Position numbers and translations under genes: made by a program. From Marchantia polymorpha subsp. ruderalis (taxonomy: Eukaryota; Streptophyta; Marchantiopsida; Marchantiales; Marchantiaceae), in contig AP031356.1 in assembly GCA_037833965.1 (NCBI GenBank), positions 10,624,501 to 10,688,500 of the forward strand: 64,000 bases of DNA, in the 5' to 3' direction. Below are positions 23,964-54,664 of the stretch, piece after piece. Every line of letters starts with the position of its first letter. Position 1 is the first letter of the stretch. The notes below the pieces were generated by a model. It made no database searches. It was not told the DNA's origin and saw only the letters and a list, made by a program, of their open reading frames with translations.

Positions 23964-25298
23964 GTGCGCAAACGGAACATCTGTCCGCAACGCACGTGGT
24001 AACTCTGGAGGCCCTTGGCCCGTAGGCGGCCTCTCTCCCGTCGAGGTTGCAGCGTGGCCCGTTGCTCCTGCGGTCGTCCGCGCTTCCTCATGCTTCTCTG
24101 GCGACGCACTTCCTTTCTCCGTCGCAATCGTCGCCGTGTCCGCACTGTCGGCTCGTAACACCAGTCTGCGTGCCTTCTGCTTCGGCCGGCTGTATGACTC
24201 GTACAGCGGCCGCGGTCGAATGGGAGCAGAGGGTTCTTGATGCTGCTCCTCTTCGGACTCTTCTCTCCATCGCCGCTTCCGCGGCACTCGTGCTGCAGGA
24301 GTGTTTCTCCCTTCGTCCCTCCGCCTTGATGGGGTAGAAGTCGGTGACTCCTCTGCATCAGTGTCGACCTCATTCTCCCGCACATACTTCCCGGGATGGT
24401 CGACGGACAATGGCGGAAAATGCTCAAGCTCCGCCGCTGTCAAACAATTCCGCTGTCGATAAAAATTGATGAGGAAAGGAGAAAGATGGTTTAGAGTTCC
24501 CCCCTTCTCCTCAAAAGCGTGCTGTCGCATCACCCTGTGCAGGATGCTCGCCCAGTGAATTGGAGTTCCTTCGATGACGCACTCCACAAAAGAGACCTGC
24601 CACAATGTGATGTAGCAGGCGCGGTGTGGCTGCAGTAATTGCATCAGCGCCGCGGACAAAGTCCGGCGAAATCGATCCTTGCAATCACGGGTCCTGTACC
24701 CATTCTTGGTAGAGCTCCCGGTCTTGAACAGCTCCACAAATTGCGCCTCTTCCTGCTTGGTCACCTTGATGCTCTCACTGTCGAAAAGGAGATGCCCTGG
24801 CATGCCAGCACATCTTCCCAACGCCTGCGCCCAATCTTGGACCGTCCACCGATCAACATGCGGACGCAATCCGCGCGAGGGTGGTCCCTGTGGCTCTAGC
24901 CACTCGCGCACCATATTCGCACAGATGTAGTTCCATCCCCATAGCAAGAAATCGAGCTTTCTTGCTATTAAGCGCTCTTCGAAAGCGCGCAGCCCGTTCT
25001 GTGGTAGGCGAAGTGGCACCATCCGCAATCTGCCCGGTCTCGTCATTGCGTTCCTGGGGTTCGCTCGCCCGCTCATTCTACTTCCGCACCGCCCGAGCTC
25101 CTTTCTCTCTCGGCAAACTCTAATCGCCCTCAATTCCAAATCTCGCGCATTCACTTCTCCCTCAATCAACAAGAAATCTCCTGTGCGGCGACGTCGAGAA
25201 TGTTTAGCAGCCAGCAAATGGATGCGCGCAGCGCGCACAAGAGATTGGAATCGCGAATTCAAGAATGGGACGTTCTCCGCCGCCCGGTCGAAGGTCAT
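23964..25298 (-). pseudogene. U3 ORF in D's 3' LTR, cut by element E
   Basis: MTFDRAAENVPFLNSRF start, whole N-terminal domain and start of the linker to RALRTDVPFAH, where E's LTR begins. Near-identical to the D 5' LTR copy over this span. Confidence 0.8.
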
Positions 25299-26487
25299 GG
25301 TCGGCTCTTGCTCGTGGAGAACGTCTCACTTGATGGCCGCGCCGGCTCTACGCTGGAACGGTCTCCGCTCTCACGCGCGGCTTCACGCTCCGCTGTCGCC
25401 GATTAAACTCTCACGCTCAAATTGGCGGATTTGAACTCCGCGAGCGTATTACCCCGCGGACATGGGGGCGTAGCGCCGAAGGCGAGTTTTCCGCCTTGCG
25501 CGGTACACTTGTTTGTACCGTCCCTCGGCCAATCCCCCTCTGCCTTGACGCGTGTGTCCGCATGTCGGACAAAAGTTCAACTCCTGCCTGTGCGCAGGCG
25601 CTCGCCTGTGCGCAGGCGAATTCCGTGTGCGGCGTCGCGCTGGCGCGGAAGGCGTTGACCGTGGTCAGCCGTCTCCGTCCAGTCTGTCCGTTTCTTGTCT
25701 CTTCGTCGGCGCTTCCGCCGCCGCAACTCCGTCCGTCTAAGAGCGCATCCACCCGTCCCGTCCGCATGGTCCGTACAGATTTGATTACTCTGGCGGCTCT
25801 TCCGCCGTACGCGGCGCTGCGCTGGCGCGGAAGGCGCCGTACACTTTCTACCTCACAAGGCGCATTTCTAGGGCCCAAGGCGGATTTTCCGCCGACGCCG
25901 AAGCGCCTGTGCACAGGCGAACGCCTGTGCGTAGGCGGACTTCGCGCCTCCCCAAACCCTACTTCGCCTGTGCACAGGCGAACGCCTTCGTCCGCGCATA
26001 GGACAAAACCTGATTCCCCCTTCCGCGTAGGCGGAATTCCCGCCGGTGGCGAACTCCTTCCGCCGAAGGCGACCGTCTCCGTATCTTCCAATAGTGATAA
26101 CTCCCTAAGTCCTCATCCGTTCCAAGCGTTCTTGGACTCGTTGGAATCAGTGCGTCGAGCTCTTTCCAACGAGACTCTAACTTGGTCAAGGCGCCCGAGG
26201 GTTGACCTAATTATGGAGGATTTCCCTACCACCGCGGACGCAACCTCCGAAGGCGGGTTTTGCGCCTTGCGTCGTAGGGGTCCTAACTGCAGAGCTCGCA
26301 GGGAGGGTGGTGCCTGTCCTTACTGCTGCACCCCAAATCCTAGATTCTACAAGATCCCTCGAGAGTCCCCGCGATCTTCCGGATTCACTCCGTTTTGATG
26401 TACCGAAGGCTATTTACAATGCTGCCAGGGTACAGTTTTCCAAAAATGTTTTAATTTCCTCAAAATTGCCAAAAGTGGGGTACCACA
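23964..26487 (-). repeat. 3' LTR of element D, first half
   Basis: Begins (minus strand) TGTGGTACCCC at 26487, right after the polypurine tract, and is interrupted by element E at 23964. It contains the AT-rich LTR head, the GC-rich palindrome region and the first ~470 codons of the U3 ORF. Confidence 0.9.
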
Positions 26488-26501
26488 TGCTCCCCTCCTC
26501 A
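26488..26501 (-). other. Polypurine tract of element D
   Basis: Minus strand TTGAGGAGGGGAGCA-type purine run between the end of pol (26525) and the LTR start (26487). Confidence 0.85.
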
Positions 26502-26524: not shown

Positions 26525-29356
26525 TCACATGTGGTATTTCTTCAACCGCCACCCGTTCACTCGGGTGCCTAACAAATCGCCGGCCAGGTCCGCAAGTTGG
26601 ATGGATCCATTCGGGAAGACTTCGACAACCCTGTAAGGTCCCATCCATCTTAGGTGCAGTTTGCTTGGGAATCTGGCATGCCTGCTGTCGTAGAGCAATG
26701 CCAAATCACCCGCCTGCAGGAGTACAGGTTTGATCTTTTTATCGTATCTCTCCTTTCGGCGGAGCTGGATTTTCCTGGTGCGATCTTCGGCGTCTCGTCT
26801 CCTCTCATCCAGCAGTGTGACCTCCTGTAACCTGTAGAGCTGACTCTCCTCTGCGCCCATCCTCTGCAAATCCAACGTTCGTTGGGTGGGTACTTCAAAT
26901 TCGATCGGGAGGATCGGGTGTTGCCCATACACCAGAAAGTATGGTGTCTGTTTGATCGTGATCTTCTCAGCTGTCCGGTACGCCCATAGAGCGGCTGCTA
27001 GCTTCGTATCCCAGTCGTGAGCGTGATTCACCGTGACCTTGAGTAGTATTTTACACAGCAGACCATTGGACTTCTCCGTCAGTCCATTCGCCTTGGGATT
27101 GTATGGAGTAGTCTTCCGGTGCTTGATGTGGAAATACCGTGTCAGATCTTCGATGATCTGATTCAGAAAATGCGTGCCCCGGTCGCTGACTAGCTCTAAG
27201 GGACATCCGTAGCGTGTGATAATCGACTCAAACAAGAAGGCTGCCACTGTGGCAGCATCATCCCTTCTGGTGGCCCTGGCCTCCACCATTTTGGTGGCGT
27301 AGTCCGTTGCTACCAGAATGTAGCGCCTTCGTGTGCTTCTAGTCACTGGTTGTATCGGCCCTACAAAGTCAATGCCCCACTTTTCGAAAGGTGCTAGAGG
27401 CATGATGGGAGTTAGGGGCCAGCGTGTTGTAGGCGTCGGTCTCCCCGTCCTCTGGCAACTGTCGCACTTGCGGATGTAATCGAGAACATCCTTAAACATG
27501 GTCGGCCACCAATACCCCGCATTTAGAATCTTTGTGACCGTGTTCCTGGTGGCATAGTGTCCACCCGCCTCCTCTGTATGCATCGCACTCACTATTCTTG
27601 GTACCTCTGATTCCTCCAGGCATCTGCATAAGCGCTCATCTGCCATCTTCTTGAACAAAACCCCCTGCTGGAGTTGGTACGGGCCTGCCTTATGAATAAA
27701 GACAGTTCGCTGTTCCAAATCCATGCCTACGGGACACTGGAGGGTTAGCAGATATCGATACAGGTCGGCATAGCGGGACTCATGCCCTGCAGACAACTGA
27801 AATAACTCTTCATCTGGAAAATCGTCCACCAATTCCTCCTCTGTTGGCTGGGTCCATAATCGGGACAAGTAATCCGCATTTTCGTGGTGCACCCCTTTCC
27901 TGGTCTGGACTGTGTAGGTGAACTCTTGTAGTAACAACACCCACCTGGCGATCCGACCGGATAGGTCGGCTTTCTTGACTAGGTGTTGCAATGCGTAGTG
28001 GTCCACATGGAACACAAACTCGTAGCAGATTAGGTAGTGACGGAACTTTTTACAGGAGTACACCATCCCCAACGCTTCTCTCTCCGTCGTGGTGTACTTC
28101 CGCTCTGCTAGAGACAGCTGTCGGCTCGCGAAGTAGATCGGGTAGTCCTTTTTGTTGTCATCCTTTTGACTCAGTACTACACCGATCGCGAATGCAGATG
28201 TGTCAACGTAAACATGGAATGGTCGATTCCAGTCTGGACTCCTTAGCACGGGAGCAGTCGTGAGTTTCGCTTTAAGAGCCTCAAATGCTGACTGCTGGTT
28301 CGCACCCCAGGCATAAGGCTCGTCCTTCTTCAACAACTTGGTCAGGTCCGCCGCCAGTATTGCATACAGGTGTATGAATCTTCGGTAGTAGCCCACATGA
28401 CCCAGGAATGCTCGCAGCTCTCTTAGATTCGTGGGTGGCTCAAGCTCGAGTATAACCTTGACCTTCTCGATGTCCACCGCAATGCCGTCTGCCGAGACCC
28501 GATGACCCAACAAGATCCCACTAGTCATAAAGAAAAAGCACTTCTCGGGATGCAGTGATAAACTGCTCTCTCTACACTTATCGAAGGTCTGCTTCAAGTG
28601 ACTTAGGTGTTCAGACCGCTTCCCAAAGACACAGAAGTCATCGATGAATATTTCCAGGAACTTCCTCAGTTGTTCCTGGAAGATATTGGTCATCATCCGT
28701 TGAAAGGTGGCAGGCGCGTTGCACAGACCGAAGGGCATCTTGTGGTATGCGTAAGTTCCCCAGTCGGTTGTGAACGTAGTTTTATCCTTGTCCTGTTCCC
28801 GGATAGACACCTGATTGTAACCTGAGAACCCGTCCAGGAAGCTATAGCATTCATGTCCTGCGACATGGTCTAGAATGGCATCCGTGAATGGCAACGGGTG
28901 ATGATCCTTGCGTGTTGCTGCATTCAACTTCCGGAAATCCTGACACACTTGTATCTTACCCGTCAACTTCTTGGGTACGATAACAATCGGCGACACCCAC
29001 TCACTTCTGAGCACTGGGTAAATAATACCAGCACTCAAGTACTTATCTATCTCCTCCTTAACTAGCAAGGAGTATTTTGGGTTGAGGCGATACTGGCGCT
29101 GTTGTATGGGTACTGAGTCGTCCAGTAAATCGATATGGTGTTCCCCATACCGTGCAGGTATCCCCTTCATGTCTTCGATCTTCCAGGCGAAGACGTCGAC
29201 ATAATGGCTAAGGAATGCCTGTACTTTCCTTAGCTCGTCTCCTCTCACTGTGCTTGATACCTTCAAGCACTTGTCGGGACTGAGTTGTACTTCGTGACAG
29301 TCACTAGGGTCGACAATGCCCTCGGTGTGACTCGTCTCACTCCTTCCCAGTCCCAC
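26525..29356 (-). CDS. pol: Element D pol (RT, RNase H, integrase), whole-looking
   Basis: About 943 codons downstream of the gag leaky stop, in the same frame. RT about residues 80-330 (VSPIVIVPKKLTGKI, MPFGLCNAPATFQRMM, FIDDFCVFG); RNase H about 390-510 (VYVDTSAFAIGVVLS, TTEREALGM, HVDHYALQHL); integrase zinc domain about 610-665 ending CDSCQRTG; DDE core from WGIDFVGPIQP through LVSDRGTHF and NPKANGLTEKSNG. The C-terminal part (GPYRVVEVFPNGSIQL) shows no chromodomain. It makes cDNA and integrates it. Because the reading frame is open throughout, this is the best pol copy here for classification. Confidence 0.92.
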   Translation of the reverse strand: MGLGRSETSHTEGIVDPSDCHEVQLSPDKCLKVSSTVRGDELRKVQAFLSHYVDVFAWKIEDMKGIPARYGEHHIDLLDDSVPIQQRQYRLNPKYSLLVKEEIDKYLSAGIIYPVLRSEWVSPIVIVPKKLTGKIQVCQDFRKLNAATRKDHHPLPFTDAILDHVAGHECYSFLDGFSGYNQVSIREQDKDKTTFTTDWGTYAYHKMPFGLCNAPATFQRMMTNIFQEQLRKFLEIFIDDFCVFGKRSEHLSHLKQTFDKCRESSLSLHPEKCFFFMTSGILLGHRVSADGIAVDIEKVKVILELEPPTNLRELRAFLGHVGYYRRFIHLYAILAADLTKLLKKDEPYAWGANQQSAFEALKAKLTTAPVLRSPDWNRPFHVYVDTSAFAIGVVLSQKDDNKKDYPIYFASRQLSLAERKYTTTEREALGMVYSCKKFRHYLICYEFVFHVDHYALQHLVKKADLSGRIARWVLLLQEFTYTVQTRKGVHHENADYLSRLWTQPTEEELVDDFPDEELFQLSAGHESRYADLYRYLLTLQCPVGMDLEQRTVFIHKAGPYQLQQGVLFKKMADERLCRCLEESEVPRIVSAMHTEEAGGHYATRNTVTKILNAGYWWPTMFKDVLDYIRKCDSCQRTGRPTPTTRWPLTPIMPLAPFEKWGIDFVGPIQPVTRSTRRRYILVATDYATKMVEARATRRDDAATVAAFLFESIITRYGCPLELVSDRGTHFLNQIIEDLTRYFHIKHRKTTPYNPKANGLTEKSNGLLCKILLKVTVNHAHDWDTKLAAALWAYRTAEKITIKQTPYFLVYGQHPILPIEFEVPTQRTLDLQRMGAEESQLYRLQEVTLLDERRRDAEDRTRKIQLRRKERYDKKIKPVLLQAGDLALLYDSRHARFPSKLHLRWMGPYRVVEVFPNGSIQLADLAGDLLGTRVNGWRLKKYHM

Positions 29357-29359
29357 CGT

Positions 29360-29368
29360 TAATTGCTA
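29360..29368 (-). promoter_or_regulatory. Gag/pol recoding site, UAG-CAAUUA (element D)
   Basis: The gag frame ends in GAA-UAG, followed immediately by CAAUUA, with pol open in the same frame beyond. UAG-CAAUUA is the exact leaky-stop context of tobacco mosaic virus (established knowledge). The matching site in element B differs only by a U-to-C that still fits CARYYA. Confidence 0.7.
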
Positions 29369-32200
29369 TTCGTCTTCCGGCTGAATAGCTTCCGGCTCTT
29401 CTTCTTCTCCCACCGAACAGCAGGCAACGAATCCCACGAAATAATCGGATTCGGTACCACTGGAATCCGATCGCGCGGTCGACTCACTGTCCCCGCCCGA
29501 TGTGTAACCTGCACTTGTCGATGGGGTCTCTCCTTCGTGTCTGACCCTATTCCAGGGCACCGTAATGGTCTGGGTCGGTTCCGAAGGATGGGGAAACTTA
29601 AGGCGATGCCTTCGCCAATCACATCTGACTTGTGCGCCATATAGCCATGGTCGCCCGAGCAGAACGTCATAGCCCTGCTTCATCATCGGTTGAAGGATGA
29701 TATACGTCAACCGAAAGTCCGCACCACCGATGATTGTTTTGACATTGCGCAGCATACTTGCAGGCATTCTCCGCGTCTGATCCGCTAATCTCAACACCCG
29801 CTTCGAGGGTTCGTATTGACTGAACCCCAAAGCTCTCGCGGTATCCTCCGTCATTATGTTGACTCCTGATCCAGAGTCGATTGGTACCCTGCGTACACAA
29901 CACCCTGCTATTTCCACATCGATCTCTGGTGGCCCTTGGTCTTCGCTCTCCACTTGATATACTTGAGAGGATGTGGATGTGCGCGGCTTTCGCGGACGCC
30001 GTAGCGAAAGCATCAACATTCTCCGATACGTCTTATTGTCCTCCAGGAGCTGCTTGAACGTGATGTTCACTTTCCGACTCCCGAGATCTTCGACCAAGTC
30101 ATAGTGGGCCCGTTGGGTCGCCGGGGTCGGCGGCGACGCTCTGCGAGGTTCCACGGTGGCTGCCAACTTCGCCCCAAGGAAGGATGGCAAGTCTGGCCGC
30201 TGTGGGTCCTTTTGAGTGCGGATCGCTTCCTTCAACAGGTTGGTTACCTCGTTGCGGATATCCGGAGCATAGTCCCGTTTCAGCAAGCGTACAGGCTCGT
30301 CCTCGACCGCTGTCTGGGGGCGCACTGCTGGTGCCTCTCGCGTAGCCGAAGACTTCCGTGCAGGTCGCAAGTCGGACTTGCTGGATGTCTTCTCCTTCCC
30401 TTTTCCCGTCCGGTCGTCGGTTCTCCGTTCGTGCTTGCGAGTGTCACGCTCTTGCTCCTTCGATTTCTTGGAACTACGAGTTTCGACCCGTGCGCACACA
30501 ACCTCTTCCGCCGGCCATTCTTCGTCTTCGTCATCCCCGTCTGAACCTACTTCGACCTGGTTAACTTGGACGTCCTCCTTGGCAGGAGGGTTCACAAATC
30601 GTACCGCTGGCCGAGGGACTGGTGGCTGATCACACTCTGGCGCAGTATGCCCGGTCTTCTTGCAATTACTACATGTCGGAGCATAATCGTTTCGCCTTTT
30701 TGGATGGGGACACTGCGGTGAGAAGTGTCCAACTTCCCCGCAATTATAACAAGCTCGCGGTGGCGGTGGGTCAAACGTCCCTGGAGGTGCTCTCCGCCTC
30801 ACGGGTACTGTAGTGGCCCGATCCACCGGAATATATCGTGGGACTTGCATTGCTGAAACTGCAGTAGGGGTAGGAACCGACTGGACGGCGTAGGCTGTCT
30901 CTTCGCTAGCCTCTCCATAGTACTGGGGGTGCTCTCCATAGTACGGTTGTGCCCACTCTACTGCGTTGACAGGATATGACGGACGGGTGGTAAGGCACTC
31001 GGTGTTTGCATGTCCCACCGCCCCGCACGTAGTACACCATAAGTTCGCTCGCACTCTCCCGGGTGATTTTCGGCGATCATGTCCGCCTACCACTTGAACC
31101 TTGAGATCGGCGAAGTCCTTCACAAGGGTCTCCATCTTCGAGGCTATGTCTCCCGGCGCTCTGTCCGTAGTCACTCGTCGGGTGCCCTTTTTCTTCGCTG
31201 CCCCATGCTTCTTCCTCTTCTTCTCCTCCTCCAACGATGAGGTTTCCTCTTCTTCGGATGAGGAACGGTTCTCGTCCGAAGACGATTCCTCCGATGACGG
31301 AGTTGTACCTCTACGTCGTCTTCGCCCTCCCTTCGGTTTTCGCTCCTTTGACTCCCGTCTCTCTCTCCCTCTTCGGTTGAGAGTGGAAGTCTCGAAGGCT
31401 TCTGCCGATGCAATCACATCCTCAATAGTGTCGCACTTGCTGCGTCGGCAAAAAGTCTCCATCTCCCGAGTTAAACCGGTCACGTACCAATCCACAGCTT
31501 GTTGTACCGAGAAAGGGGACCCTGGTCCTGTCTTCGGTATTCTGTCAAGGAGGTCCAGAAATCTCTCAGTGTAGTCACGGAGACTCTCCTTCTTCTCTCG
31601 CTGCAAATTACGTAACTTTGTCAAAACCCGGCTGTCGTAGCCGAGCTCGCGGAAGCGGCGAAGGAACTTCTCCTTCAGCTGGGCCCATGTTGTCAACCCA
31701 GTCGGATCGATGCTCTCGTGATTGTACCAACTCCTCGCTTTCTTCCGCAGGAGGCTTGGAAAGATCCTTAGTCGGTCGTCGTCTGCGATCTCGCGATTGG
31801 CAATAGACACCGATTCGAACAACTTGATGTATGAATCTGCATCGTCGTCATCCCCACTCCCTTTATACTTTGGGTAGGAATGTTTAGTAATCGGCTGAGG
31901 TAGCCGCACATTGGCTTGTCCGTCCGCCATCGGTGTGTCTGTCGACGATTCTCGGGCGGTCGGTTCTACTTCACGAGGCGGGTCCGTGCAAGGAATATCT
32001 AGTAGAACTGTAAGCACCAAGTTTGGGTCCGAGTCGCCGGGGGTAGGTTCCCCAAGGATGTCGGCCGAACTAGGCTTAGGTACTCTTTTTGGTGTTTTCT
32101 TGTTTTGATGCCGTGTCTCTTCCACGGCCTTCTCTGAATCTCGTCGGAACCTGCGGACAGCTCTAGCACTTAGGTTGCTCCCGCTAGCCCCAGTCGACAT
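29366..32200 (-). CDS. gag: Element D gag-protease, whole-looking
   Basis: About 944 codons, start MSTGASGSNLSARAVRRFRRDSEK, 47 nt past the primer-binding site. Gag domain about residues 105-265 (SYIKLFESVSIANREI, WAQLKEKFLRRFRELGYDS). A Ser/Glu/Lys-rich stretch (EESSSDENRSSSEEEE) follows, then three CCHC knuckles (CTTCGAVGHANTEC, CYNCGEVGHFSPQC, CSNCKKTGHTAPEC). The aspartic protease is about 760-880 (VPIDSGSGVNIMTEDTARALGF, DVLLGRPWLYG). The tail is acidic (EEEEPEAIQPEDE). The protein would build the particle, bind genomic RNA and mature the polyprotein; termination versus readthrough would set the gag:pol ratio. Confidence 0.92.
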   Translation of the reverse strand: MSTGASGSNLSARAVRRFRRDSEKAVEETRHQNKKTPKRVPKPSSADILGEPTPGDSDPNLVLTVLLDIPCTDPPREVEPTARESSTDTPMADGQANVRLPQPITKHSYPKYKGSGDDDDADSYIKLFESVSIANREIADDDRLRIFPSLLRKKARSWYNHESIDPTGLTTWAQLKEKFLRRFRELGYDSRVLTKLRNLQREKKESLRDYTERFLDLLDRIPKTGPGSPFSVQQAVDWYVTGLTREMETFCRRSKCDTIEDVIASAEAFETSTLNRRGRERRESKERKPKGGRRRRRGTTPSSEESSSDENRSSSEEEETSSLEEEKKRKKHGAAKKKGTRRVTTDRAPGDIASKMETLVKDFADLKVQVVGGHDRRKSPGRVRANLWCTTCGAVGHANTECLTTRPSYPVNAVEWAQPYYGEHPQYYGEASEETAYAVQSVPTPTAVSAMQVPRYIPVDRATTVPVRRRAPPGTFDPPPPRACYNCGEVGHFSPQCPHPKRRNDYAPTCSNCKKTGHTAPECDQPPVPRPAVRFVNPPAKEDVQVNQVEVGSDGDDEDEEWPAEEVVCARVETRSSKKSKEQERDTRKHERRTDDRTGKGKEKTSSKSDLRPARKSSATREAPAVRPQTAVEDEPVRLLKRDYAPDIRNEVTNLLKEAIRTQKDPQRPDLPSFLGAKLAATVEPRRASPPTPATQRAHYDLVEDLGSRKVNITFKQLLEDNKTYRRMLMLSLRRPRKPRTSTSSQVYQVESEDQGPPEIDVEIAGCCVRRVPIDSGSGVNIMTEDTARALGFSQYEPSKRVLRLADQTRRMPASMLRNVKTIIGGADFRLTYIILQPMMKQGYDVLLGRPWLYGAQVRCDWRRHRLKFPHPSEPTQTITVPWNRVRHEGETPSTSAGYTSGGDSESTARSDSSGTESDYFVGFVACCSVGEEEEPEAIQPEDE

Positions 32201-32264: not shown

Positions 32265-32286
32265 AAAAGAAGTTGTCGGCTTCTTA

Positions 32287-35200
32287 TGTAATAACCCACT
32301 AAAGGCTAAAACTGCAATATAGTGGTAGAAAGGTCGAACCCACAGGGACAGAGGAACACACAGGGTACAAAGTGTCACATTTAACAGACTATTGAGGAGT
32401 TTGAATTCTCAGGCGACTGTCACTCCCAGAAATACTGCAAGTGTCCACTCGGAGCGCACTCGGAGGTCGCACAGTGCAGCGTAACACACACACACACACC
32501 TGAAACTACAGAAACACAACCCAGAGATCCGTTAGGACCTCTACTTCAAGATTTCAGGGGGAAAGTCTCTCAAGAGTACACTCGGCAAAGCTGCGGGCAG
32601 TGACTTCCAACTCCGGCTTTTACAACACTTCCACTAGCTTGCTGCTAGTGTAGGAAACCCGGTTTGGACTGCCTACTTCGGATCGAAGTCACTCCTACGC
32701 GGTGAACAACACTCTCAACTCACGAAACGCGCAGAGAACACAGGTCCGCACTGAAGGACTCACTGTGAAACATTCCAGTAACACAACAACAGTCTATTGA
32801 AGAGTTTGAATTCTCAGGCACTTGTCATTCCCAGAAATACTACAGGGGTTACCCTCAAGGCACCTGCTGCAGCGTAACCTGAATTTACAACCAAGGCTTA
32901 CACGAAGTAGCAAAACTTCACTTTGGCATTCAGGGGAAAAATCCCAAGGGAGTACAATCAGAAAGAAACACTCGAAGGTGTAGGGGCGAAACTGTTCAAG
33001 TATCTAACTAGTCACTGGCTCTGAGCATCGGCAGTCACCCGCAGGTGCAGATCCGAACTACTCAAGTCTCTAACCAATGGACTAGCTCTGAACATTCGGC
33101 CGAAGGCCTTCAGCTACAAAATGCGGAACGCTAAGTTGTAACTCCTCGTGCGTGGTGACAGAACTCAAGGACACAAACACGCAAAGGAAATGGGTTCCTG
33201 ATCTATACTTCTGATGGGAAAGAACCCCAGGCAAAACGCCTGGAACTATTTTATACCTTCTAAGTCCTAACTAACAGTACACTGCACTACGCTACACGCC
33301 TGCACGGAACCACGCTACACTACACTCCGCGGAACTTGTACTACGTCTCCTGCGCGGCCGACTGCCGCGCACTAACTCCCTACCCTGCCAATCTTCCGCT
33401 CGACTGCGCAGTCCCAAACGCTGCAACGCCGCGGACACCTCCACTTCGAGGGCGGACATGGTATCCTGTGCCTTCGACAGAAAGGCATCGAGCTTCTTTG
33501 CTACCTTCCGCCGACTCCTACTGTCGCCTGACAACAACCCGGCTGCGCGCAGTTCAAACTCACGCAGTGTGAGTTTCTCCTGCGCCTTCACTTCCCTGTG
33601 GGCGTAGCCCTTGAGACAGTGGGCGACACGCCTCGCCGTCTCCACCTTCGTGCGATCCGCCTCCTTCCTGCGATCCTCTTCAATTATCACTAATTGCGAT
33701 TCGGCTTCAGCACGTTGCGCTCTCAATTCGCCACACTCTGACTGTAACCTGCGGATTAACTCTTCATCCGCCTGCCGTGCGAGCTGACATTGTTCCAACA
33801 ACCGCGTCTGTCGCACGATCTCCTCTGACAAAATCTGATTCTGGGCCTGCTCAGAATTGAGTGCTTCCTTGACCTTCACCTGCTCCTTGGTGAGCTCGTC
33901 CAGTTTCTCATCCTTCATCTTCTCGGAGTGCTTGTAGAATTTCTGATTAAGTTTGTACTGACCCCACAAGCATGCATGCTTCTCCTTCAATTCCCTCAAC
34001 TCCTGGTCCACTCTAGCTAATAGCTTGATGGTGTGGACTTTAGTGCGAGTCCGCCTGCGCACTAATTCGATGTAAGATCCCGGCTGGAGTGGGTCGGCGT
34101 ATTTATCGACCTTGCGATCCAAGTACCTCAGCAACGGAATCACCTGCTTAGAGAGCGCCGCCGCCGGCGCTCCAACAATTTCCTCCTCCTCCTCCTCGGT
34201 GTCTTCTGCTCCTGACATTTCTTCCGTGGAGCCTCCGTCGTCATCATCCGAGTGGAGAATTTCAGTCGCCATTGATTGCGTCGGCGACTGCCCCGAGTGG
34301 GGCTGCACGTCATCGACGTGTGCTGCCTGCGAAGGCACGGCTGCGGCCTCGCTGCTCGTCGCCAAAATGTCCAAGGCGGAAGGCGGATGTACCCGTGCGG
34401 CATCCCCGTCGCTCGCTTGTTGGTTGCCTACCGCGTCCTCTCTGCCTCCGTCGCCCGCCGCCGAAGGCGATCGAGCGGAAGGTGGCTGCGCGGGGTTTGA
34501 TTGCGCATCGCGCATCGAAATTTCATCCCGCGGACAGTCACTCCGCTCCTCCGTCTGTTGCTGCTCCCTTGATCGGTCCGTGGGGGCTGTGCCCGGCCCG
34601 TGCGCAGGCGCAATCGCCGGCGCCTTGTCCGCCGCAGGCGTAGCGCCGCGGACATCTATCGCCGAAGGCGACATGGCCGGGGGCCGCTCGCCCGATGTCC
34701 CTTGGCCTATAGGCCCTACCGCCGAAGGCGCATCTATCGGCGGACTTCCCGCCGATGGTGCGGCCTCCGCACGCTCCCTGCTCGTATCTCCTCGGCTCGA
34801 AGGCCCTGGCGCCGAAGGCGCAAATTGCGGCGCGTGGTGCGCCGGAGGGTCTGGCCCCGAGGGCCGGTGTCTCGTAGGCGGTTCTTCCGCCGGCTCCTTC
34901 CCCTTCCTACGTTGGAACGGGGGTGATTCTTGCCTGTGCACAGGCGGCACGCGTGGAGGTGTCCTGTGCACAGGCGACCTTTGCACAGGTGAGCGCCTGT
35001 GCACAGGCGGACTACTCCTTCCCACGCGTAAGCGTAGATCCACGTCCACTTGTGAACGCCTGTCCGCGGAGGCTCGTCTGTGCGCAAACGGAACATCTGT
35101 CCGCATCGCACGTGGTAACTCCGGAGGCCCTTGGCCCGTAGGCGGCCTCTCTCCCGTCGAGGTTGCAGCGTGGCCCGTCGCTCCTGCGGTCGTCCGCGCT

Positions 35201-37661
35201 TCCTCATGCCTCTCTGGCGACGCACTTCCTTGCTCCGTCGCAATCGTCGCCGTGTCTGCACTGTCGGCTGGTAACACCAGTCTGCGTGCCTTCTGCTTCG
35301 GCCGGCTGTATGGCTCGCACAGCGGCCGCGGTCGAATGGGAGCAGAGGGTTCTTGATGCTGCTCCTCTTCAGACTCTTCCCTCCATCGTCGCTTCCGCGG
35401 CACTCGTGCTGCAGGAGTGTGTCTCCCTTCGTCCCTCCGTCTTGATGGGGTAGAAGTCGGTGACTCCTCTGCATCAGTGTCGACCTCATTCTCCCGCACA
35501 TACTTCCCGGGATGGTCGATGGACAATGGCGGAAAATGTTCAAGCTCCGCCGCTGTCAAACAATTCCGCTGTCGATAAAAATTGATGAGGAAAGGCGAGA
35601 GATGGTTTAGAGTTCCCCCCTTCTCCTCAAAAGCGTGCTGTCGCATCACCCTGTGCAGGATGCTCGCCCAGTGAATTGGAGTTCCCTCGATGACGCACTC
35701 CACAAAAGAGACCTGCCATAATGTGATGTAGCAGGCGCGGTGCGGCTGCAGTAATTGCATCAGCGCCGCGGACAAAGTCCGGCGAAATCGATCCTTGTAA
35801 TCACGGGTCCTGTACCCATTCTTGGTAGACCTCCCGGTCTTGAACAGCTCCACAAATTGCGCCTCTTCCTGCTTGGTCACCTTGATGCTCTCACTGTCGA
35901 AAAGGAGATGCCCTGGCATGCCAGCACATCTTCCCAACGCCTGCGCCCAATCTTGGACTGTCCACCGATCAACATGCGGACGCAATCCGCGCGAGGGTGG
36001 TCCCTGTGGCTCTAGCCACTCGCGCACCATATTCGCACAGATGTAGTTCCATCCCCATAGCAAGAAATCGAGCTTTCTTGCTATTAAGCGCTCCTCGAAA
36101 GCGCGCAGCCCGTTCTGCGGTAGGCGAAGTGGCACCATCCGCAATCGGCTCGGTCTCGTCATTGCGTTCCTGGGGTTCGCTCGCCCGCTCATTCTACTTC
36201 CGCACCGCCCGAGCTTCTTTCTCTCTCGGCAAACTCTAATCGCCCTCAATTCCAATTCACGCGCATTCACTTCTCCCTCAATCAACAAGAAATCTCCTGT
36301 GCGGCGACGCCGAGAATGTTCAGCAGCCAGCAGATGGATGCGCGCAGCGCGCACCAGAGATTGGAATCGCGAATTCAAGAATGGGACGTTCTCCGCCGCT
36401 CGGTCGAAGGTCATGGTCGGCTCCTGCTCGTGAAGAACGTCTCACTTGATGGCCGCGCCGGCTGTACGCTGGAACGGTCTTCGCTCTCACGCGCGGCTTC
36501 ACGCTCCGCCGTCGTCGATTAAACTCTCACGCTCGAATTGGCGGATTTGAACTCCGCGAGCGTATTACCCCGCGGACATGCGGGCGTAGCGCCGAAGGCG
36601 AGTTTTCCGCCTTGCGCGGTACACTTGTTCGTACCGCCCCTCGGCCAATCCCCCTCTGCCTTGACGCGTGTGTCCGCATGTCGGACAAAAGTTCAACTCC
36701 TGCCTGTGCGCAGGCAGGAGCCTCGGCGGATTCTCCGCCGGCGCGGAACTTGAACACCCTCCTGTGCACAGGCGGTCGCCTGTGCGCAGGCGAATTCCGT
36801 GCGCGGCGTCGCGCTGGCGCGGAAGGCGTTGACCGTGGTCAGCCGTCTCCGTCCAGTCTGTCCGTTCCTTGTCTCTCCGTCGGCGCTTCCGCCGCCGCAA
36901 CTCCGTCCGTCCAAGAGCGCATCCACCCGTCCCGTCCGCATGGTCCGTACCGATTTGATTACTCTGGCGGTTCTTCCGTCGTACGTGGCGCTGCGCTGGC
37001 GCAGAAGGCGCTGTACAATTTCTACCTCACAAGGCGCATTTCTAGGGCCCAAGGCGGATTTTCCGCCGACGCCGAAGCGCTTGTGCACAGGCGAGCGCCT
37101 GTGCGTAGGCGGACTTCGCGCCTCCCCTAACCCTACTTCGCCTGTGCACAGGCGAACGCCTTCGTCCGCGCATAGGACAAAACTTGATTCCCCCTTCCGC
37201 GTAGGCGGAATTCGCGCCGGTGGCGAACTCTTTCCGCCGTAGGCGACCGCCTCCGTTTCTTCCAATAGTGATAACTCCCTAAGTCCTCATCCGTTCCAAG
37301 CGTTCTTGGACTCGTTGGAATCAGTGCGTCGAGCTCTTTCCAACGGGACCCAAACTTGGTCAAGGCGCCCGAGGGTTGACCTAATTATGGAGGATTTCCC
37401 TACAGCCGCGGACGCAACCTCCGAAGGCGGGTTTTGCGCCTTGCGTCGTAGGGGTCCTAACTGCAGAGCTCGCAGGGAGGGTGGTGCCTGTCCTTACTGC
37501 TGCACCCCAAATCCCAGATTCTACAAGATCCCTCGAGAATCCCCGTGATCTTCCGGATTCACTCCGTTTTGATGTACCGAAGGCTATTTACAATGCTGCC
37601 AGGGTACAGTTTTCCAAAAATGTTTTAATTTCCTCAAAATTGCCAAAAGTGGGGTACCACA
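32287..37661 (-). repeat. 5' LTR of element D (5.4 kb)
   Basis: Minus strand from TGTGGTACCCC at 37661 to TTATTACA at 32287. It carries the GC-rich palindromic U3, the whole-looking U3 ORF, TATA at 33248-33255 with its hairpin at 33227-33243, and an R-U5 with a short CA microsatellite (about 32483-32499). It abuts solo LTR C at its outer end. Confidence 0.94.
33292..36414 (-). CDS. U3-encoded ORF of element D, whole-looking (1,040 codons)
   Basis: Best complete copy of the LTR-internal gene. Start MTFDRAAENVPFLNSRFQSL, end CSVAWFRAGV. Layout as in element E: Trp-rich N-terminal domain (to ~310), Pro/Arg/Ala linker with SPVHRRSPVQRSPVHR repeats, acidic patch, PLLRYLDRKVDKYA block, long coiled coil (EELTKEQ-type heptads), CLKGYAHREVKAQEKLTLRE block and basic tail. 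It differs from the E copy at scattered residues and small in-frame length changes in the linker, the pattern expected if the frame was kept while copies spread. No known family recognised; a remote relation to plant transposon ORF1 or Gag-like proteins is possible but unsupported. Confidence 0.78.
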   Translation of the reverse strand: MTFDRAAENVPFLNSRFQSLVRAARIHLLAAEHSRRRRTGDFLLIEGEVNARELELRAIRVCRERKKLGRCGSRMSGRANPRNAMTRPSRLRMVPLRLPQNGLRAFEERLIARKLDFLLWGWNYICANMVREWLEPQGPPSRGLRPHVDRWTVQDWAQALGRCAGMPGHLLFDSESIKVTKQEEAQFVELFKTGRSTKNGYRTRDYKDRFRRTLSAALMQLLQPHRACYITLWQVSFVECVIEGTPIHWASILHRVMRQHAFEEKGGTLNHLSPFLINFYRQRNCLTAAELEHFPPLSIDHPGKYVRENEVDTDAEESPTSTPSRRRDEGRHTPAARVPRKRRWREESEEEQHQEPSAPIRPRPLCEPYSRPKQKARRLVLPADSADTATIATEQGSASPERHEEARTTAGATGHAATSTGERPPTGQGPPELPRAMRTDVPFAHRRASADRRSQVDVDLRLRVGRSSPPVHRRSPVQRSPVHRTPPRVPPVHRQESPPFQRRKGKEPAEEPPTRHRPSGPDPPAHHAPQFAPSAPGPSSRGDTSRERAEAAPSAGSPPIDAPSAVGPIGQGTSGERPPAMSPSAIDVRGATPAADKAPAIAPAHGPGTAPTDRSREQQQTEERSDCPRDEISMRDAQSNPAQPPSARSPSAAGDGGREDAVGNQQASDGDAARVHPPSALDILATSSEAAAVPSQAAHVDDVQPHSGQSPTQSMATEILHSDDDDGGSTEEMSGAEDTEEEEEEIVGAPAAALSKQVIPLLRYLDRKVDKYADPLQPGSYIELVRRRTRTKVHTIKLLARVDQELRELKEKHACLWGQYKLNQKFYKHSEKMKDEKLDELTKEQVKVKEALNSEQAQNQILSEEIVRQTRLLEQCQLARQADEELIRRLQSECGELRAQRAEAESQLVIIEEDRRKEADRTKVETARRVAHCLKGYAHREVKAQEKLTLREFELRAAGLLSGDSRSRRKVAKKLDAFLSKAQDTMSALEVEVSAALQRLGLRSRAEDWQGRELVRGSRPRRRRSTSSAECSVAWFRAGV

Positions 37662-39531
37662 GGACCACGCTGTAGCCTCGACGGGCGAGAGGCCGCCTAC
37701 GGGCCAAGGGCCTCCGGAGTTACCACGTGCGTTGCGGACAGGTGTTCCGTTTGCGCACAGACGAGACTCCGCGGACGTACGAGCCTCCGCGGACAGACGA
37801 TCACAAGTGGACGTAGATCTACGCTTACGCGTGGGAAGGAGCACTCCGCCTGTGCACAGGTCGCCTCCACACGTGCCGCCTGTGCACAGGCAGGAATCAC
37901 CCCCGTTCCAACGTAGGAAGGGGAAGGAGCCGGCGGAAGAGCCGCCTACGAGACACCGGCCCTCGGGGCCAGACCCTCCGGCGCACCACGCGCCGCAATT
38001 TGCGCCTTCGGCGCCAGGGCCTTCGAACCGAGGAGATACGAGCAGGGAGTGTGCGGAGGCCACACTATCGGCGGGTAATCCGCCGGTAGATGCGCCTTCG
38101 GCGGTAGGGCCTCAGGGCCAAGGGACATCGGGCGAGCGGCCCCCGGCCATGTCGCCTTTGGCGATGGACGTCCGCGGCGCTACGCCTGCGGCGGACAAGG
38201 CGCCGGCATTTGCGCCTGCGCACAGGCCAAGCACAGCCCCCGCGGACCGATCAAGGGAGCAGCAACAAACGGAGGAGCGGAGTGACTGTCCGCGGGATGA
38301 AATTTCGATGCGCGATGCGCAATCAAACCCCGCGCAGCCACCCTCCGCTCGATCGCCTTCAGCGGCGGGCGTCGGCGGCAGAGAGGACACGGTAGACGAC
38401 CAACAAGCGAGCGGCGGGGATGCCGCACGGGCACATTCGCCTACCGCCTTAGACATTTTGGCGAAGAGCAGCGAGGCTGCAGCCGTGCCTTCGAAGGCAG
38501 CACACGTCGACGACGTGCAGCCCCACTCGGGTCAGTCGCCGACGCAATCAATGGCAACTGAAATTCTCCACTCGGATGATGACGACGGAGGCTCCACCGA
38601 AGAAATGTCAGGAGCAGAGGACACCGAGGAGGAGGAGGAGGAAATTGTTGGAGCGCCGGCGGCGGCGCTCTCTGAGCAGGTGATACCGTTGCTGAGGTAC
38701 TTGGATCGCAAAGTCGATAAATACGCCGACCCACTTCAGCCGGGATCTTACATCGAGTTAGTGCGCAGGCGGACTCGCACTAAAGTCCACACCAGCAAGC
38801 TATTAGCTAGAGTGGACCAGGAGTTGAGGGAATTGAAGGAGAAGCATGAATGCTTGTGGGGTCAGTATAAACTTAATCAGAAATTCTACAAGTACTCCGA
38901 GAAGGTGAGGGATGGGAAACTGGAAGAGTTCACCAAGGAGCAGGTGAAGGTCACGGAAGCACTAATTTCTGAGCAGGCCCAGAATCGGATTTTGTCAGAG
39001 GAGCTCGTGCGACAGACGCGGTTGTTGGAACAGTGTCAGCTCGCACGGCAGGCGGATGAGGAGGTAATCCGCAGGCTACAGTCAGAGTGTGGCGAATTGA
39101 GAGCGCAACGTGCTGAGGCCGAATCGCAATTAGTGATAGTTGAAGAGGATCGCAGGAAGGAGGCAGATCGCACAAAGGTGGAGACGGCGAGGCGTGTCGC
39201 CCACTGTCTCAAGGGCTACGCCCACTGGGAAGTGAAGGCGCAGGAGAAACTCACACTGCGTGAGTTTGAACTTCGCGCAGCCGGGTTGTTGTCAGGCGAC
39301 AGTAGGAGTCGGCGGAAGGTAGCAAAGAAGCTCGATGCTTTTCTGTCGAAGGCGCAAGATACCATGTCCGCCCTCGAAGTGGAGGTGTCCGCGGCGTTGC
39401 AGCGATTGGGACTGCGCAGTCGAGCGGAAAATTGGCAGGGTAGGGAGTTAATGCGCGGCAGTCCGCCGCGCAGGAGACGTAGCACAGGTTCCGCGGAGTG
39501 TAGTGTAGCGTGGTTCCGCGCAGGCGTGTAG
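37662..39531 (+). pseudogene. U3 ORF of solo LTR C, C-terminal part
   Basis: Continues after element D with the linker (STGERPPTGQGPPELPRALR, PVHR repeats), acidic patch, coiled coil and the CSVAWFRAGV end. With 14559-15720 it belongs to one LTR copy, as shown by the AGTGC duplication at the outer ends. Confidence 0.78.
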
Positions 39532-40543
39532 CGTAGTGCAGTGTAGTGCTAGTTAGGACTTAGAAGGTATAAAATAGTTCCAGGCGTTTTGCCTGGGGTT
39601 CTTTCCCATCAAAAGTGCAGATCAGGAACCCATTTCCTTTGCGTGTTTGTGTCCTTGAGTTCTGTCACCACGCACGAGGAGTTACAACTTAGCATTCCGC
39701 ATTTTGTAGCTGAAGGCCTTCGGCCGAATATTCAGATCTAGTCCATTGGTTAGAGACTTGAGTAGTTCGGATCTGCACCTGCGGGTGACTGCCGATGCTC
39801 AGAGCCAGTGACTAGTTAGATACTTGAACAGTTTTGCCCCTACACCTTCGAGTGTTCCTTTCTGATTGTACTCCCTTGGGATTTTTCCCCTGAATGCCAA
39901 AGTGAAGTTTTGCTACTTCGTGTAAGCCTTGGTTGTAAATTCAGGTTACGCTGCAGCAGGTGCTTTGAGGGTAACCCCTGTAGTATTTCTGGGAATGACA
40001 AGTGCCTGAGAATTCAAACTCTTCAATAGACTGTTGTTGTGTTACTGGAATGTTTCACAGTGAGTCCTTCAGTGCGGACCTGTGTTCTCTGCGCGTTTTG
40101 TGAGTTGAGAGTGTTGTTCACCGCGTCTAAGTGACTTCGATCCGAAGTAGGTAGTCCAAACCGGGTTTCCTACACTAGCAGCAAGCTAGTGGAAGCGTTG
40201 TAAAAGCCGGAGTTGGGAGTCACTACCCGCAGCTTCGCTGAGTGTACTCTGGAGAGACTTTCCCCCCCCTGAAATCTTGAGTAGAGGTCCTAACGGATCT
40301 CTGAGTTGTGTTTCTGTAGTTTCAGGTGTGTGTGTGTGTGTGTGTTACGCTGCACTGTGCGACCTCCGAGTGCGCTCCGAGTGGACACTTGCAGTATTTC
40401 TGGGAGTGACAGTTGCCTGAGAATTCAAACTCCTCAATAGTCTGTTAAAACGTGACACTTTGTACCCTGTGTGTTCCTCTGTCCCTGTGGGTTCGACCTT
40501 TCTACCACTATATTGCAGTTTTAGCCTTTAGTGGGTTATTACA
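39532..40543 (+). repeat. TATA, R and U5 of solo LTR C
   Basis: TATAAAAT at 39568-39575, hairpin just after it, then an R-U5 containing two related ~420-bp units, a TG microsatellite (about 40326-40346) and the TTATTACA end at 40543. No protein-coding potential seen. Confidence 0.85.
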
Positions 40544-41358: not shown

Positions 41359-44004
41359 CTATCTACCACTCGCAGCATCTGCGCGAAACCAAACTACTCT
41401 ACTGCACTCAGCAGATCCGGTGCTGCGCCTCCTGCGCGCCGGACTGCTCCGCTTACTATCTCTACCTTGCCAGTCTTCCGACCGGCTGCGTAACCCCAGG
41501 CGTCGGAGCGCTGTGGTGACTTCCGACTGCAAGTGCGCCATAGTGTCGCGCGCACCCGACAAGAAGGTTTCTAATTTTCTTGCCACTCGCCGCCGACTCC
41601 GACTGTCACCCTCCGTCAATGCCGCCGCCCGAAGCTCGAACTCCCGGAGTGTAATCCTCTCTTGAGCTGCCACCTCCCAATGGGCGTATCCTTTTAGACA
41701 ACGAGTCACCTGTGCCGCCAACTCTCCTCGCGCCCTGCAGCTGCTCTCCACCTCGGCCAGCTGCATTTCTAAACCCGCACGTTGTGCCCTCAAATCCGAG
41801 CACTCGGATTGCAAGTTGCACAACAACTCCTCATCCTCCTTGCGGGCTCTTTGACTTTCTTCTAAGGCGCGCGTCTGGCGCGCAAGCTCGGCTGCTAGGA
41901 CTTGGTTCTGTCTCCGCTCCTCCTGCAATTCCGACTCGATCTTTGCCCGTATTAGTTCGGCATCCGCCTGACTTTTCGTCGCCGCATCCTGCACCTGCTG
42001 CTGCAAGGCTTGGTATAGCTTCTGGGTGACCGCCAGGTGTTGTCGGAGGGCGGTGTTCCTATCCACATATACTCCGCACCTAGAGGCCCACTTTGCCACC
42101 TTGCTCCTCGTCCTTCTCCTGATAGTCTCCACATAAGACTGCGGTTTTAAAGCACTTGCGTATTTGGATGTCTTGCGATCCAGATATCGCAGGAGTGGAA
42201 CTATCTGTTCGCACAGCACCCCTGTTGGCGTTTTCTGCACCGAATCCGCTTCTTGCTCTTCCGAGCTCGTTTCATCCTCAGTCTCGAGGATTTCAGTCGC
42301 CACCGAATCCCTTGGCGACTCCCTGGAACTGTGGCGCGCAGCAGCTTCCGCTGCGACTGCTGCTCCACTGCCTGCTAAAATATCCAAGGCAGTGGGAGAT
42401 CCCACTGCTTGAGCCCCTGTTCCGGCTCGATCTTCGGTTTGTGAAGGGGTCGACGCCGCAGTGACTTTTGTCACTCTTGCACCGCCCGCTTCTGCTGCCT
42501 GTCCTTCCGGCGCAATCTGCGCGGAAGGTGTCCTTGCTGAAGGTGCGTCCGCCGAAGGCGTCCGCACACTGGTCGTTGGCCCCATCCGTCTCGCAGTCGG
42601 CGAATCCGGCTGACTCTCTGTCGTCCGACTCACAGTCGGCCGACCAGCAGTTGTCCGACTGGGAGTCGGATATACCCTGCGCGTCTTGACTCCACTTGGC
42701 CTACTTGCTGGTGGCGTTCTTCCAGAAGTGCCTTCCGCCGAAGACGACCCTCTGAGGATTGTTGGCTCGTCAGCCAAACTCTCTTCTGCTTCCGGCCTGC
42801 TGTCCGGTTCAACGCGCCGTTCAGTTGGCCTTCCTTCCGCTTGTCGGCCTTCAGTCATCCGACTCGCAGTCGGCCGACTGTCAGTCCGTCCATCTCCTCC
42901 CGAAGGCCGTGGTGCCTTCTGAGCAGAAGTATCTGCCGTCTTCCCTAGGATCTGCGCGATTATCTCTTCCTGTGTGGGATTCCGCCGGGTCGGAGTTCGC
43001 CCGGTCTCCTCAGTAACAGTTGGCATTTTGCGTGCCCTCTGTTTTGGTCGACTGTGAGGCTCGGGGGTGGGCCGACCACGAGTCGGCGCAGCTGGCACTT
43101 CCGGCTGCCTGTCCTCAGGTCTCTCATCCCACTTCCGCTTTCGCGGAATGCGCTCACTTCGACGTTCTTCTGCTGCTCTTGCTGGAGCCGGAGCCGGAGG
43201 CGTACTAGCAGGTTCCTCGTCCGGATCCGTGTCTACTTCGGCCTCCCTTGAATATCTACCTGGATAAGTCCGGGTCAGCTGTGGAAACCGTGTTTTCTCA
43301 GCATTTGTCAAACATCCCATCGCCCGGTAAAACACGATTAAGTAAGGCGATAGATGATTGAGGGTTCCTCCCTTCTCTTCTTGCGCATGTTGGCGCGTCA
43401 CCTTCCACAGGAGCCGTGCCCAATGCACCGGAGCTCCTGACAACACTAGCTCCACAAACTCTACCTGCCAACCATGCATGTAAGCGGTCTTGGTCGGCTG
43501 CAATATCTGCAGCAATGCCGTCGCGACATTTCTCCGCAATCGATCCTTGTAATCCCGTGTCCGGAAACCGTTCTTGGGATGTCTGGCCACTTTGAAGAGC
43601 TCATTGTAAGAGACTTCTTCCTCCTGGGACACCTTCACGCTGTCGGCCTCGAAGAGGAGATCCCCTTCCTCGCCGGCACACCTGCCCAACACCTGCGCCC
43701 AATTGCAAATGTCCCATCTCTCTGGGTGTGGGCGAAATCCGCGAGAAGGCTTGTGTCTCTCCTGCAGATACTCGCGCACCATCTCCGGACATGTCCAATT
43801 CCACCCCCATAGGAGAAAATCGAGCTTCAGCCTCAACAGCACATCTTGAAATGCGCGTAGACCGATCTGCGGCACCTTGAGTGGAGACACTCGCAGCTGG
43901 GGAACCTTCGACATTGCGTTGCCTGCACACACAAACGTTCTCCCTTTTGCTCGCTCTCTCACAATCGCCACTGCGCGTCGGCCACTCAAGCACTGACTGC
44001 TCAC
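41359..44004 (-). CDS. U3-encoded ORF of element B, diverged and whole-looking (881 codons)
   Basis: Paralogue of the D and E ORF. The N-terminal domain aligns by eye (LDFLLWGWNWTCPEMVREYL, WAQVLGRCAGEEGDLLFEADSVKVS, NGFRTRDYKDRLRRNV, GGTLNHLSPYLIVFY), and so does the C-terminal part (VPLLRYLDRKTSKYA, IRRRTRSKV, CLKGYAHWEVAAQERITLREFEL, GLRSRSEDWQGR, RRRRSTGSAECS). The linker between them is different and shorter, built of Thr/Arg/Pro/Ser-rich repeats (TPSADAPSARTPSAQ), and the coiled coil has changed sequence but kept its character. The start at 44004 is the first in-frame Met; an internal Met (AMSKVPQ) is nearer the conserved block. Function unknown. Confidence 0.75.
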   Translation of the reverse strand: MSSQCLSGRRAVAIVRERAKGRTFVCAGNAMSKVPQLRVSPLKVPQIGLRAFQDVLLRLKLDFLLWGWNWTCPEMVREYLQERHKPSRGFRPHPERWDICNWAQVLGRCAGEEGDLLFEADSVKVSQEEEVSYNELFKVARHPKNGFRTRDYKDRLRRNVATALLQILQPTKTAYMHGWQVEFVELVLSGAPVHWARLLWKVTRQHAQEEKGGTLNHLSPYLIVFYRAMGCLTNAEKTRFPQLTRTYPGRYSREAEVDTDPDEEPASTPPAPAPARAAEERRSERIPRKRKWDERPEDRQPEVPAAPTRGRPTPEPHSRPKQRARKMPTVTEETGRTPTRRNPTQEEIIAQILGKTADTSAQKAPRPSGGDGRTDSRPTASRMTEGRQAEGRPTERRVEPDSRPEAEESLADEPTILRGSSSAEGTSGRTPPASRPSGVKTRRVYPTPSRTTAGRPTVSRTTESQPDSPTARRMGPTTSVRTPSADAPSARTPSAQIAPEGQAAEAGGARVTKVTAASTPSQTEDRAGTGAQAVGSPTALDILAGSGAAVAAEAAARHSSRESPRDSVATEILETEDETSSEEQEADSVQKTPTGVLCEQIVPLLRYLDRKTSKYASALKPQSYVETIRRRTRSKVAKWASRCGVYVDRNTALRQHLAVTQKLYQALQQQVQDAATKSQADAELIRAKIESELQEERRQNQVLAAELARQTRALEESQRARKEDEELLCNLQSECSDLRAQRAGLEMQLAEVESSCRARGELAAQVTRCLKGYAHWEVAAQERITLREFELRAAALTEGDSRSRRRVARKLETFLSGARDTMAHLQSEVTTALRRLGLRSRSEDWQGRDSKRSSPARRRRSTGSAECSRVVWFRADAASGR
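42625..42873. repeat. CCGACT-n3-AGTCGG palindromes in B's U3 ORF linker
   Basis: Three 15-bp copies with 6-bp arms: 42625-42639, 42655-42669 and 42859-42873, plus partial ones nearby (for example around 43066-43090). They lie in the low-complexity linker and are not seen in the A, C, D, E or F LTRs. Confidence 0.7.
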
Positions 44005-45268
44005 TCTCTTTGCAATCGTCCAAGATCGCTACTCACAATTCTTTCAAGGTCCGCCAAGATCCTTGCGCAACTCGTCTCCGCACTCTCTACTCTCACTGCA
44101 GGTCGCTCCGCCCTTGCGCGTAATCTTGGAAACTGGAAATCGCAAAGTCAAGAATGAGGGAATGAGACTGGAGCGCAGTCTTTTCTTCTCCGATTTCAAG
44201 AACGTCCAACGTTCTTACTGGTTGCAATGTACGCAGCCGGCTATACAGCTTAACGGTTTGCCCTTTGCATGCGCAAATTCACGTCTCCGCACTGCGCGCA
44301 TTCGCATGCTTAAACGTTGAATTCTCCCGCCGCCGCCACCTTCCGGACTCGAGTCCGCTGCAGGGTGTACGTCGGCCCTGTTGTCTTTTCCTAACCCGTC
44401 CCTCACCGGAGGCGTGTCGCCGCTGGTGCGTTCATCATCCGTCGGCGCCTTGCTGGAGGCGCACATCCAGCCGGAGCGAATTACGCCGGCGCAGTCGTAC
44501 CACCTATTTTGTCCTTTATGCCTCGTCCGTTGCTGCCGGCGCATACCTGCCAGCGCAACTCATGCCAGCGCATCCGGCCGTCAGCGCCACGTCGGAGGCG
44601 TACATCCGACCGGCGCTTTCCTTCCATGGACAGCCGCCAAAGGCGCTTCCGACTCAGAGTTGGTTTCCTCCTATGAGCGCATGATTCCGCCGAAGGCGCA
44701 TCGCCGAGGGCGTACGGGAATCCTTTCCGGCTGTGAACCCTAGCGCGAACGGCGCATGTCCGGCTACGAGTTTTCCGACGCTCATAACTTCTCCATTCCT
44801 GATCCATCTCCGACGCTCTTAGGCTCGTTAGAACGAGCGTCCCGAGCTCTTTCTAATGCAACTTCAACCAACTGGATTTACCGTGTATCCCGATTGTTAT
44901 GAAGGTTTCCCCTTTCCGCGCTAGCGGCGCTTCGCCGAAGGCGCACTCATGGTCGGACGCCTTTAGAGGTCCGGGCCCTTCTCCTGACGTCTTTAGCAAA
45001 ACCTCCTCCTGAGGTGTCTGCGCCGGAAGCGTAGCTTCCTTATACGAGGGAGGCGCGTGAGTAGAGACACCTCAAAAAGGAGCTTTTGCCGAAGGCGTCG
45101 AAGACGTTGGCGTTGGTACATCCGACTACGTGATTCTTTGTGCCCTCGTGACGATCTCATCAATCCACTCTATTTAGCGTACCCTTCTCTAGCTACAAAC
45201 ACTGCTTTGGTACTAGTTTTCTAAAATTGTTTAAATTCTGCAAAAAAAACAAAAAGTGTGTTACCACA

Positions 45269-53661: not shown

Positions 53662-53832
53662 GGTCGGCTCTTGCTCGTGAAGGACGACTCAATTGATGGC
53701 CGCGCCGGCTCTACGCTAAAACGGTCTCCGCTCTCACGCGCGGCTTCACGCCCCGCCGTCGCCGATTTAACTCTCACGCTCGAATTGGCGAATTTGAACT
53801 CCGCGAGCGTACTACGCCGCGGACATGGGTGC

Positions 53833-54660: not shown

Positions 54661-54664
54661 TTTT

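Follow-up and report, generated by a model that had tools for sequence, protein, structure and literature searches.

A liverwort Ty3/gypsy retrotransposon family with a protein-coding gene under selection wholly within U3

We describe a Ty3/gypsy family of the liverwort Marchantia polymorpha in which a protein-coding gene under selection lies wholly within U3, the sequence 3′ of the polypurine tract that reverse transcription copies into both long terminal repeats (LTRs). The analysis covers a window of 64,000 nucleotides (contig C7, 10624501–10688500) and searches of the genome (241 Mb, nine contigs); positions below are those of the window unless a contig is named. One protein annotated in M. 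polymorpha subsp. ruderalis (P0004, AXG93_4720s1090) matches contig C6 7585154–7586050 with 100% identity over 299 residues, which assigns the genome to this species or a very close one. In element A of the window the open reading frame (ORF) occupies 33292–36414 on the minus strand, 1,040 codons from the first ATG. A second copy of 1,039 codons is found at 19597–22716 (−) in LTR B (18583–23963, −), so that both copies reported in the original prediction are present. In 500 model LTRs matched in length and dinucleotide content, the longest ORF over six frames reached a median of 157 codons, with a 95% point of 241 and a maximum of 465, compared with the 1,040 observed.

The 5,375 bp unit that holds the frame (32287–37661, −) is a true LTR, the 5′ LTR of element A. 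It has TG...CA ends (TGTGGTACC...TTACA termini), identical in the 17 complete LTRs fetched from the genome. Just outside it, within about 30 nt of its end, is the primer-binding site (PBS) TGGCGCCGCTGCCGGGGA (approximately 32266–32286, −), which is of the tRNA-Asp type. Its 18 bases are complementary to a sequence plus CCA; that sequence is present 34 times in the genome, and one of three examined loci carrying it has a tRNA-Asp(GTC) fold. Next come gag (29366–32200, −), with zinc knuckles and a protease-like stretch below the Pfam cut-off, and pol (26525–29356, −), with reverse transcriptase, RNase H and integrase recognized by Pfam. A polypurine tract (26488–26500, −) stands directly before the 3′ LTR, which begins 37 nt after the pol stop, is truncated (23964–26487, −) and ends where LTR B begins. 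The element is Ty3/gypsy by this order of gag, reverse transcriptase, RNase H and integrase between LTRs with a PBS and a polypurine tract, and by target duplications of 5 bp (nine of the 17 complete LTRs fetched; AGTGC, ATTAC and CAAAC at the window). The duplication of element A is imperfect, GGACA versus GGACC, with four of five bases the same. Two solo LTRs with perfect duplications, which had been used with the PBS and the polypurine tract to fix the LTR extent, do so. One (AGTGC; 13313–15720 and 37662–40543, +) is split by the later insertion of element A and the other (ATTAC; 49517–62694, −) is interrupted near 53833–61649 by another element, with its ORF in pieces.

U3 of the 5′ LTR runs from 37661 to about 33226 (−) and is followed by R and U5. 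The ORF lies on the gag–pol strand, starts 1,247 nt inside the LTR and stops 37 nt before a TATA box (33250–33255, −), the sole TATAAA or TATATA of the A-type LTR, the type of element A; the predicted placement upstream of the TATA box is correct. We considered and rejected membership of the aORF-3S class, additional ORFs in the internal region before the 3′ LTR, given the 37 nt between pol and LTR and the position of the ORF start. The TATA box would set the U3/R border. Alternatively, the true RNA start might lie 5′ of the ORF, which would then be the first frame of a long transcript with an R of several kilobases, the TATA box past the ORF being a second promoter. The 1.25 kb with repeated motifs that precedes the ATG would suit such a start, as would one TATAA in the upstream part of the C-type LTR, which belongs to a second subfamily represented in the window. 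However, the only A-type TATA box is past the ORF and its core is conserved in the C-type and at ten of 12 divergent loci, and we consider an upstream start improbable.

Two further features of U3 were observed. Directly 3′ of the TATA box is a short inverted repeat (33226–33255, −), CCAGGC-GTTTT-GCCTGG in the A-type, CAAGGC-GTTTT-GCCTTG in the C-type and similar to CCAAGGC-GTTG-GCCTTGG at one divergent locus, L029. It occurs in the C-type and at ten divergent loci, pairing being kept through base changes in several copies, and might form a hairpin where the RNA begins or be bound by a protein. The A-type U3 5′ of the ORF (36415–37661, −) carries repeated GCCTGTGC/GCACAGGC palindromic motifs, at six places by scan, that are absent from the upstream part of the C-type LTR.

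Since the polypurine tract comes directly after pol and before the ORF, the gene is copied into both LTRs, and recombination between LTRs leaves it whole in solo LTRs. Copies bear this out. A DNA search with a 409-base LTR piece, in which 40 of 2,290 candidates were scored, gave a list of 40 places that includes those of the window itself, and all are 99–100% identical; 20 were fetched, a sample biased to young copies. (Candidates counted in the genome searches do not measure copy number.) A complete LTR of 5,213–5,409 bp was found at 17 of the 20, the LTRs at L011, L014 and L020 being cut at the start. Nine are solo with perfect 5 bp duplications, five are followed by a PBS leader and three are preceded by a polypurine tract. 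The ORF is open over more than 1,000 codons in 13 of the 17: seven of nine solo LTRs, three of five 5′ LTRs and all three 3′ LTRs. A search with the A-type protein (44 of 13,481 first-look candidates scored) gave 29 of 44 loci without a stop. Related full elements with the ORF only outside the LTR would have contradicted the original prediction; among the A-type, C-type and divergent copies examined, none has it outside an LTR.

The C-type extends the arrangement to a second subfamily. Its ORF in the window (41359–44028, −) has 889 codons from stop to stop, with the first Met at 43914, in an LTR that begins at 45268; the other LTR of this C element has a 99% identical open frame at contig C7 10611437. 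In a genome search with the C-type protein, 40 of the 52 frames scored (from 13,762 candidates) lack a stop. Several form pairs with a spacing of 10.66–10.69 kb, which the two LTRs of a single element would give (contig C1 3606992/3617650, C5 28412047/28422737 and C6 6102246/6112902, for example), so that the presence of the gene in both LTRs of full elements, as had been claimed, is seen here too. A-type and C-type are 90% identical in pol and 63% in gag, but their U3 proteins share 48–49% identity. On contig C7, at 486795–510748, three successive C-type LTR frames are spaced by 10,657 bases, an arrangement like that of an LTR–internal–LTR–internal–LTR tandem.

Older relatives were sought at 12 divergent loci picked for the lack of a stop in the N-terminal piece; past that piece most frames are broken. 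All 12 have an ORF-like part and then LTR-matching, R–U5-like sequence, at L031 only to base 4579 of 5,375, and in nine the match reaches the LTR end. A TATA core (21–27 of 30 bases; shuffled maximum 19) follows the frame at ten of the 12 loci, L033 and L035 lacking it. Three loci represent a still older clade, typified by the protein match P0113. Of these, L044 has frame pieces 36% identical to A, a TATA-like core (22 of 31) and an LTR end; L045 and L046 lack this arrangement. Many of the P0113-type matches listed lie on the small contig C1 (5.59 Mb), a count uncorrected for its share of the genome; this contig may be a sex chromosome.

The U3 ORF is under purifying selection. Divergence across copies had been proposed as a check, and among 15 open A-type copies (105 pairs) the nonsynonymous rate (dN) was 0.0110 and the synonymous rate (dS) 0.0320, a ratio of 0.345, below 1. 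By region the ratio was 0.603 for residues 1–85, 0.058 for 86–330, 0.517 for 331–745 and 0.304 for 746–1025. As methylation of plant LTRs could mimic selection at third positions, the test was repeated on all 20 LTRs, broken ones included, with the LTR flanks as the source of the rates and CG/CHG contexts treated separately. The dN/dS ratio (omega) was then 0.50 for the whole frame (p = 3.3e-10) and 0.16 for residues 86–330 (p = 2.8e-12), the p values of this test being rough because the flanks may be non-neutral and related copies are not independent. With methylatable transitions removed, omega was 0.51 (p = 1.1e-5) and 0.20 (p = 3.4e-5), respectively.

It might be argued that no protein is made and that the frame is kept by chance, by base composition or by a function of the DNA or RNA. 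GC-rich sequence does yield long chance frames, methylated third-position cytosines can imitate selection and a test limited to transversions is weak (see below). We nevertheless find this account very unlikely, given the model LTRs described above and the constraint on residues 86–330 that survives removal of methylatable transitions. In addition, variants of the N-terminal domain shared between copies comprise one nonsynonymous and 19 synonymous changes (singletons 16 and 28), and comparison of the C-type with locus L040 over 725 codons gives dN 0.132 and dS 0.581.

Constraint on residues 1–85 is not significant (context-controlled omega 0.71, p = 0.18), the C-type frame has no ATG 5′ of the residue aligned to Met85 and several M. 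polymorpha gene models begin at a Met matching it. Translation therefore probably starts at Met85 (36162), giving a protein of about 956 amino acids, and the first 85 codons probably lie outside the constrained protein. The predicted length thus stands for the open frame, whereas the protein itself is probably shorter. Its most constrained part is the N-terminal domain (residues 85–330; 35425–36162, −; omega 0.16–0.20), for which a structure model gave a pLDDT of 64.3 and a pTM of 0.62. The domain is followed by a long linker of low complexity, in which acidic and basic residues are clustered, and then by a C-terminal part rich in heptad-like repeats. Clusters of the PRKRKW and RPKQKARKL type recur in the linker, perhaps hinting at a nuclear location.

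Pfam held no family for the A-type protein at E values up to 10 and only chance-level or composition-type matches for its relatives. Neither PDB sequences nor a fold search yielded a match. The plant transposon-protein families PF04195, PF20167 and PF10536 were not among the matches of the protein or its relatives at that threshold; the PF20167 profile matched nowhere in the genome, so that this control was itself silent. In three homology searches, with scoring limited to about 7,990 candidates or fewer in each, 4, 27 and 118 matches were obtained. Unnamed matches number two in the set of 27 and 13 in that of 118, and all others are named M. polymorpha; no named homologue outside this species was among them, although the shared five-residue words required may have caused distant relatives in other organisms to be missed.

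Capture of host genes by retrotransposons is known in plants, and the gene might be such a passenger. Against this, the named matches are all M. polymorpha gene models of the U3-gene family itself, the most divergent full-domain match, P0113, is itself a high-copy family, and the frame is common to subfamilies at 48–49% identity. We hold capture to be highly improbable.

What might the protein do? We favour, with moderate confidence, an accessory protein whose action on the element is in trans. The gene would lie in U3 because the polypurine tract comes straight after pol. A genomic RNA begun at the TATA box of the 5′ LTR would carry the frame once, 3′ of pol, and translation might proceed from the 3′ part of genomic or subgenomic RNA or by way of a U3 promoter 5′ of the ORF. 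The product would act, most likely in the nucleus, on expression or integration of the element, for example as an activator or anti-silencing factor. Expression from a solo LTR would need a promoter 5′ of the ORF or outside the LTR. As to origin, a polypurine tract arising 5′ of an ancestral 3′ ORF may have drawn that ORF into U3.

Several observations weigh against this reading. With transversions only, the selection signal is weak (whole frame omega 0.62, p = 0.03; residues 86–330 0.36, p = 0.075), and constraint is weaker in residues 331–745 (0.66, p = 0.005) and 746–1040 (0.57, p = 0.025). The ORF is broken in four of the 17 LTRs fetched (L016, L019, L025 and L028) and, among the three LTRs of the window that were studied, in that of a plus-strand element. 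A motif scan of the A-type U3 recognized no promoter 5′ of the ORF, and no domain or fold match in Pfam, PDB sequences or a fold search points to a function.

The main rival is a third structural or particle protein, env-like, movement-like or a partner of gag, made from the 3′ end of the genomic RNA, its place past the polypurine tract having no regulatory meaning. Sense additional ORFs of plant elements also sit 3′ of pol in genomic RNA, and the coiled-coil-like C-terminal part fits a structural role as well. The lack of a Pfam match argues against it, and the conserved basic clusters fit the nucleus better, if weakly. We regard this as a real but minority possibility. The accessory reading also has a stronger form, which we put forward as a rather speculative suggestion: the gene would encode a sequence-specific activator or anti-silencing protein that recognizes its own LTR. 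A solo LTR would then be gene and target together, a self-maintaining regulatory unit that outlives gag–pol and provides the remaining full elements with activator in trans.

The sag gene of mouse mammary tumour virus and lentiviral nef are located in or overlap U3, and sag is about one-third the length of the product described here. The likeness drawn to them in the original prediction extends to position, sense strand and 3′ of the polypurine tract and hence in both LTRs, but not to sequence, Pfam giving no family at E up to 10 and so no link to Sag or Nef; moreover, the present system is a plant Ty3/gypsy element without env. It shares with plant elements bearing sense additional ORFs an extra gene 3′ of pol, mostly of obscure function, yet here the gene is inside the LTR, not the internal region, and persists in solo LTRs. 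Like known Marchantia Ty3/gypsy elements it has a tRNA-Asp primer site and no additional RNase H (Pfam scan of A-type pol, E up to 0.1), although the portions of the literature consulted mention no LTR gene for those. The VANC anti-silencing proteins of VANDAL elements (PMC5735166, PMC10398659), regulators that a transposon encodes and that act in trans, would be counterparts by analogy only, and VANDAL elements are DNA transposons.

The remainder of the window is densely nested. At 13157–45268 nesting is at least three deep, element A lying in the AGTGC solo LTR and this in the 5′ LTR of the C element. A complete plus-strand element sits within pol of the C element. Its 3′ LTR (2695–8021, +) has the ORF broken at codon 712 and its 5′ LTR (L013), left of the window, has it open; the two LTRs show 33 differences over 5,327 aligned bases, and CAAAC stands at both outer sides. 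The element that interrupts the ATTAC solo LTR (53833 to about 61647–61649, +) has direct-repeat ends of about 0.83–0.86 kb, 99.4–99.6% alike, and long frames at 55993–59061 and 59068–60765. The sequences at 46091–46926 and 63167–64000 form a direct repeat of about 0.84 kb and are 92% alike.

More than 100 M. polymorpha annotations of hypothetical proteins (105 of the 118 matches, the remainder being unnamed) are pieces of the U3-gene family. The public entries (P0003–P0122) are termed hypothetical proteins, some with predicted introns that remove part of the domain. It is usual to regard LTRs as control regions that code for nothing, and frames inside them are passed over in repeat masking. 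In this family an intact gene under selection is carried by LTRs, among them solo LTRs. It becomes possible to test whether solo LTRs allow a transposon to preserve a trans-acting gene, and a model liverwort offers a counterpart to the U3 genes of retroviruses.
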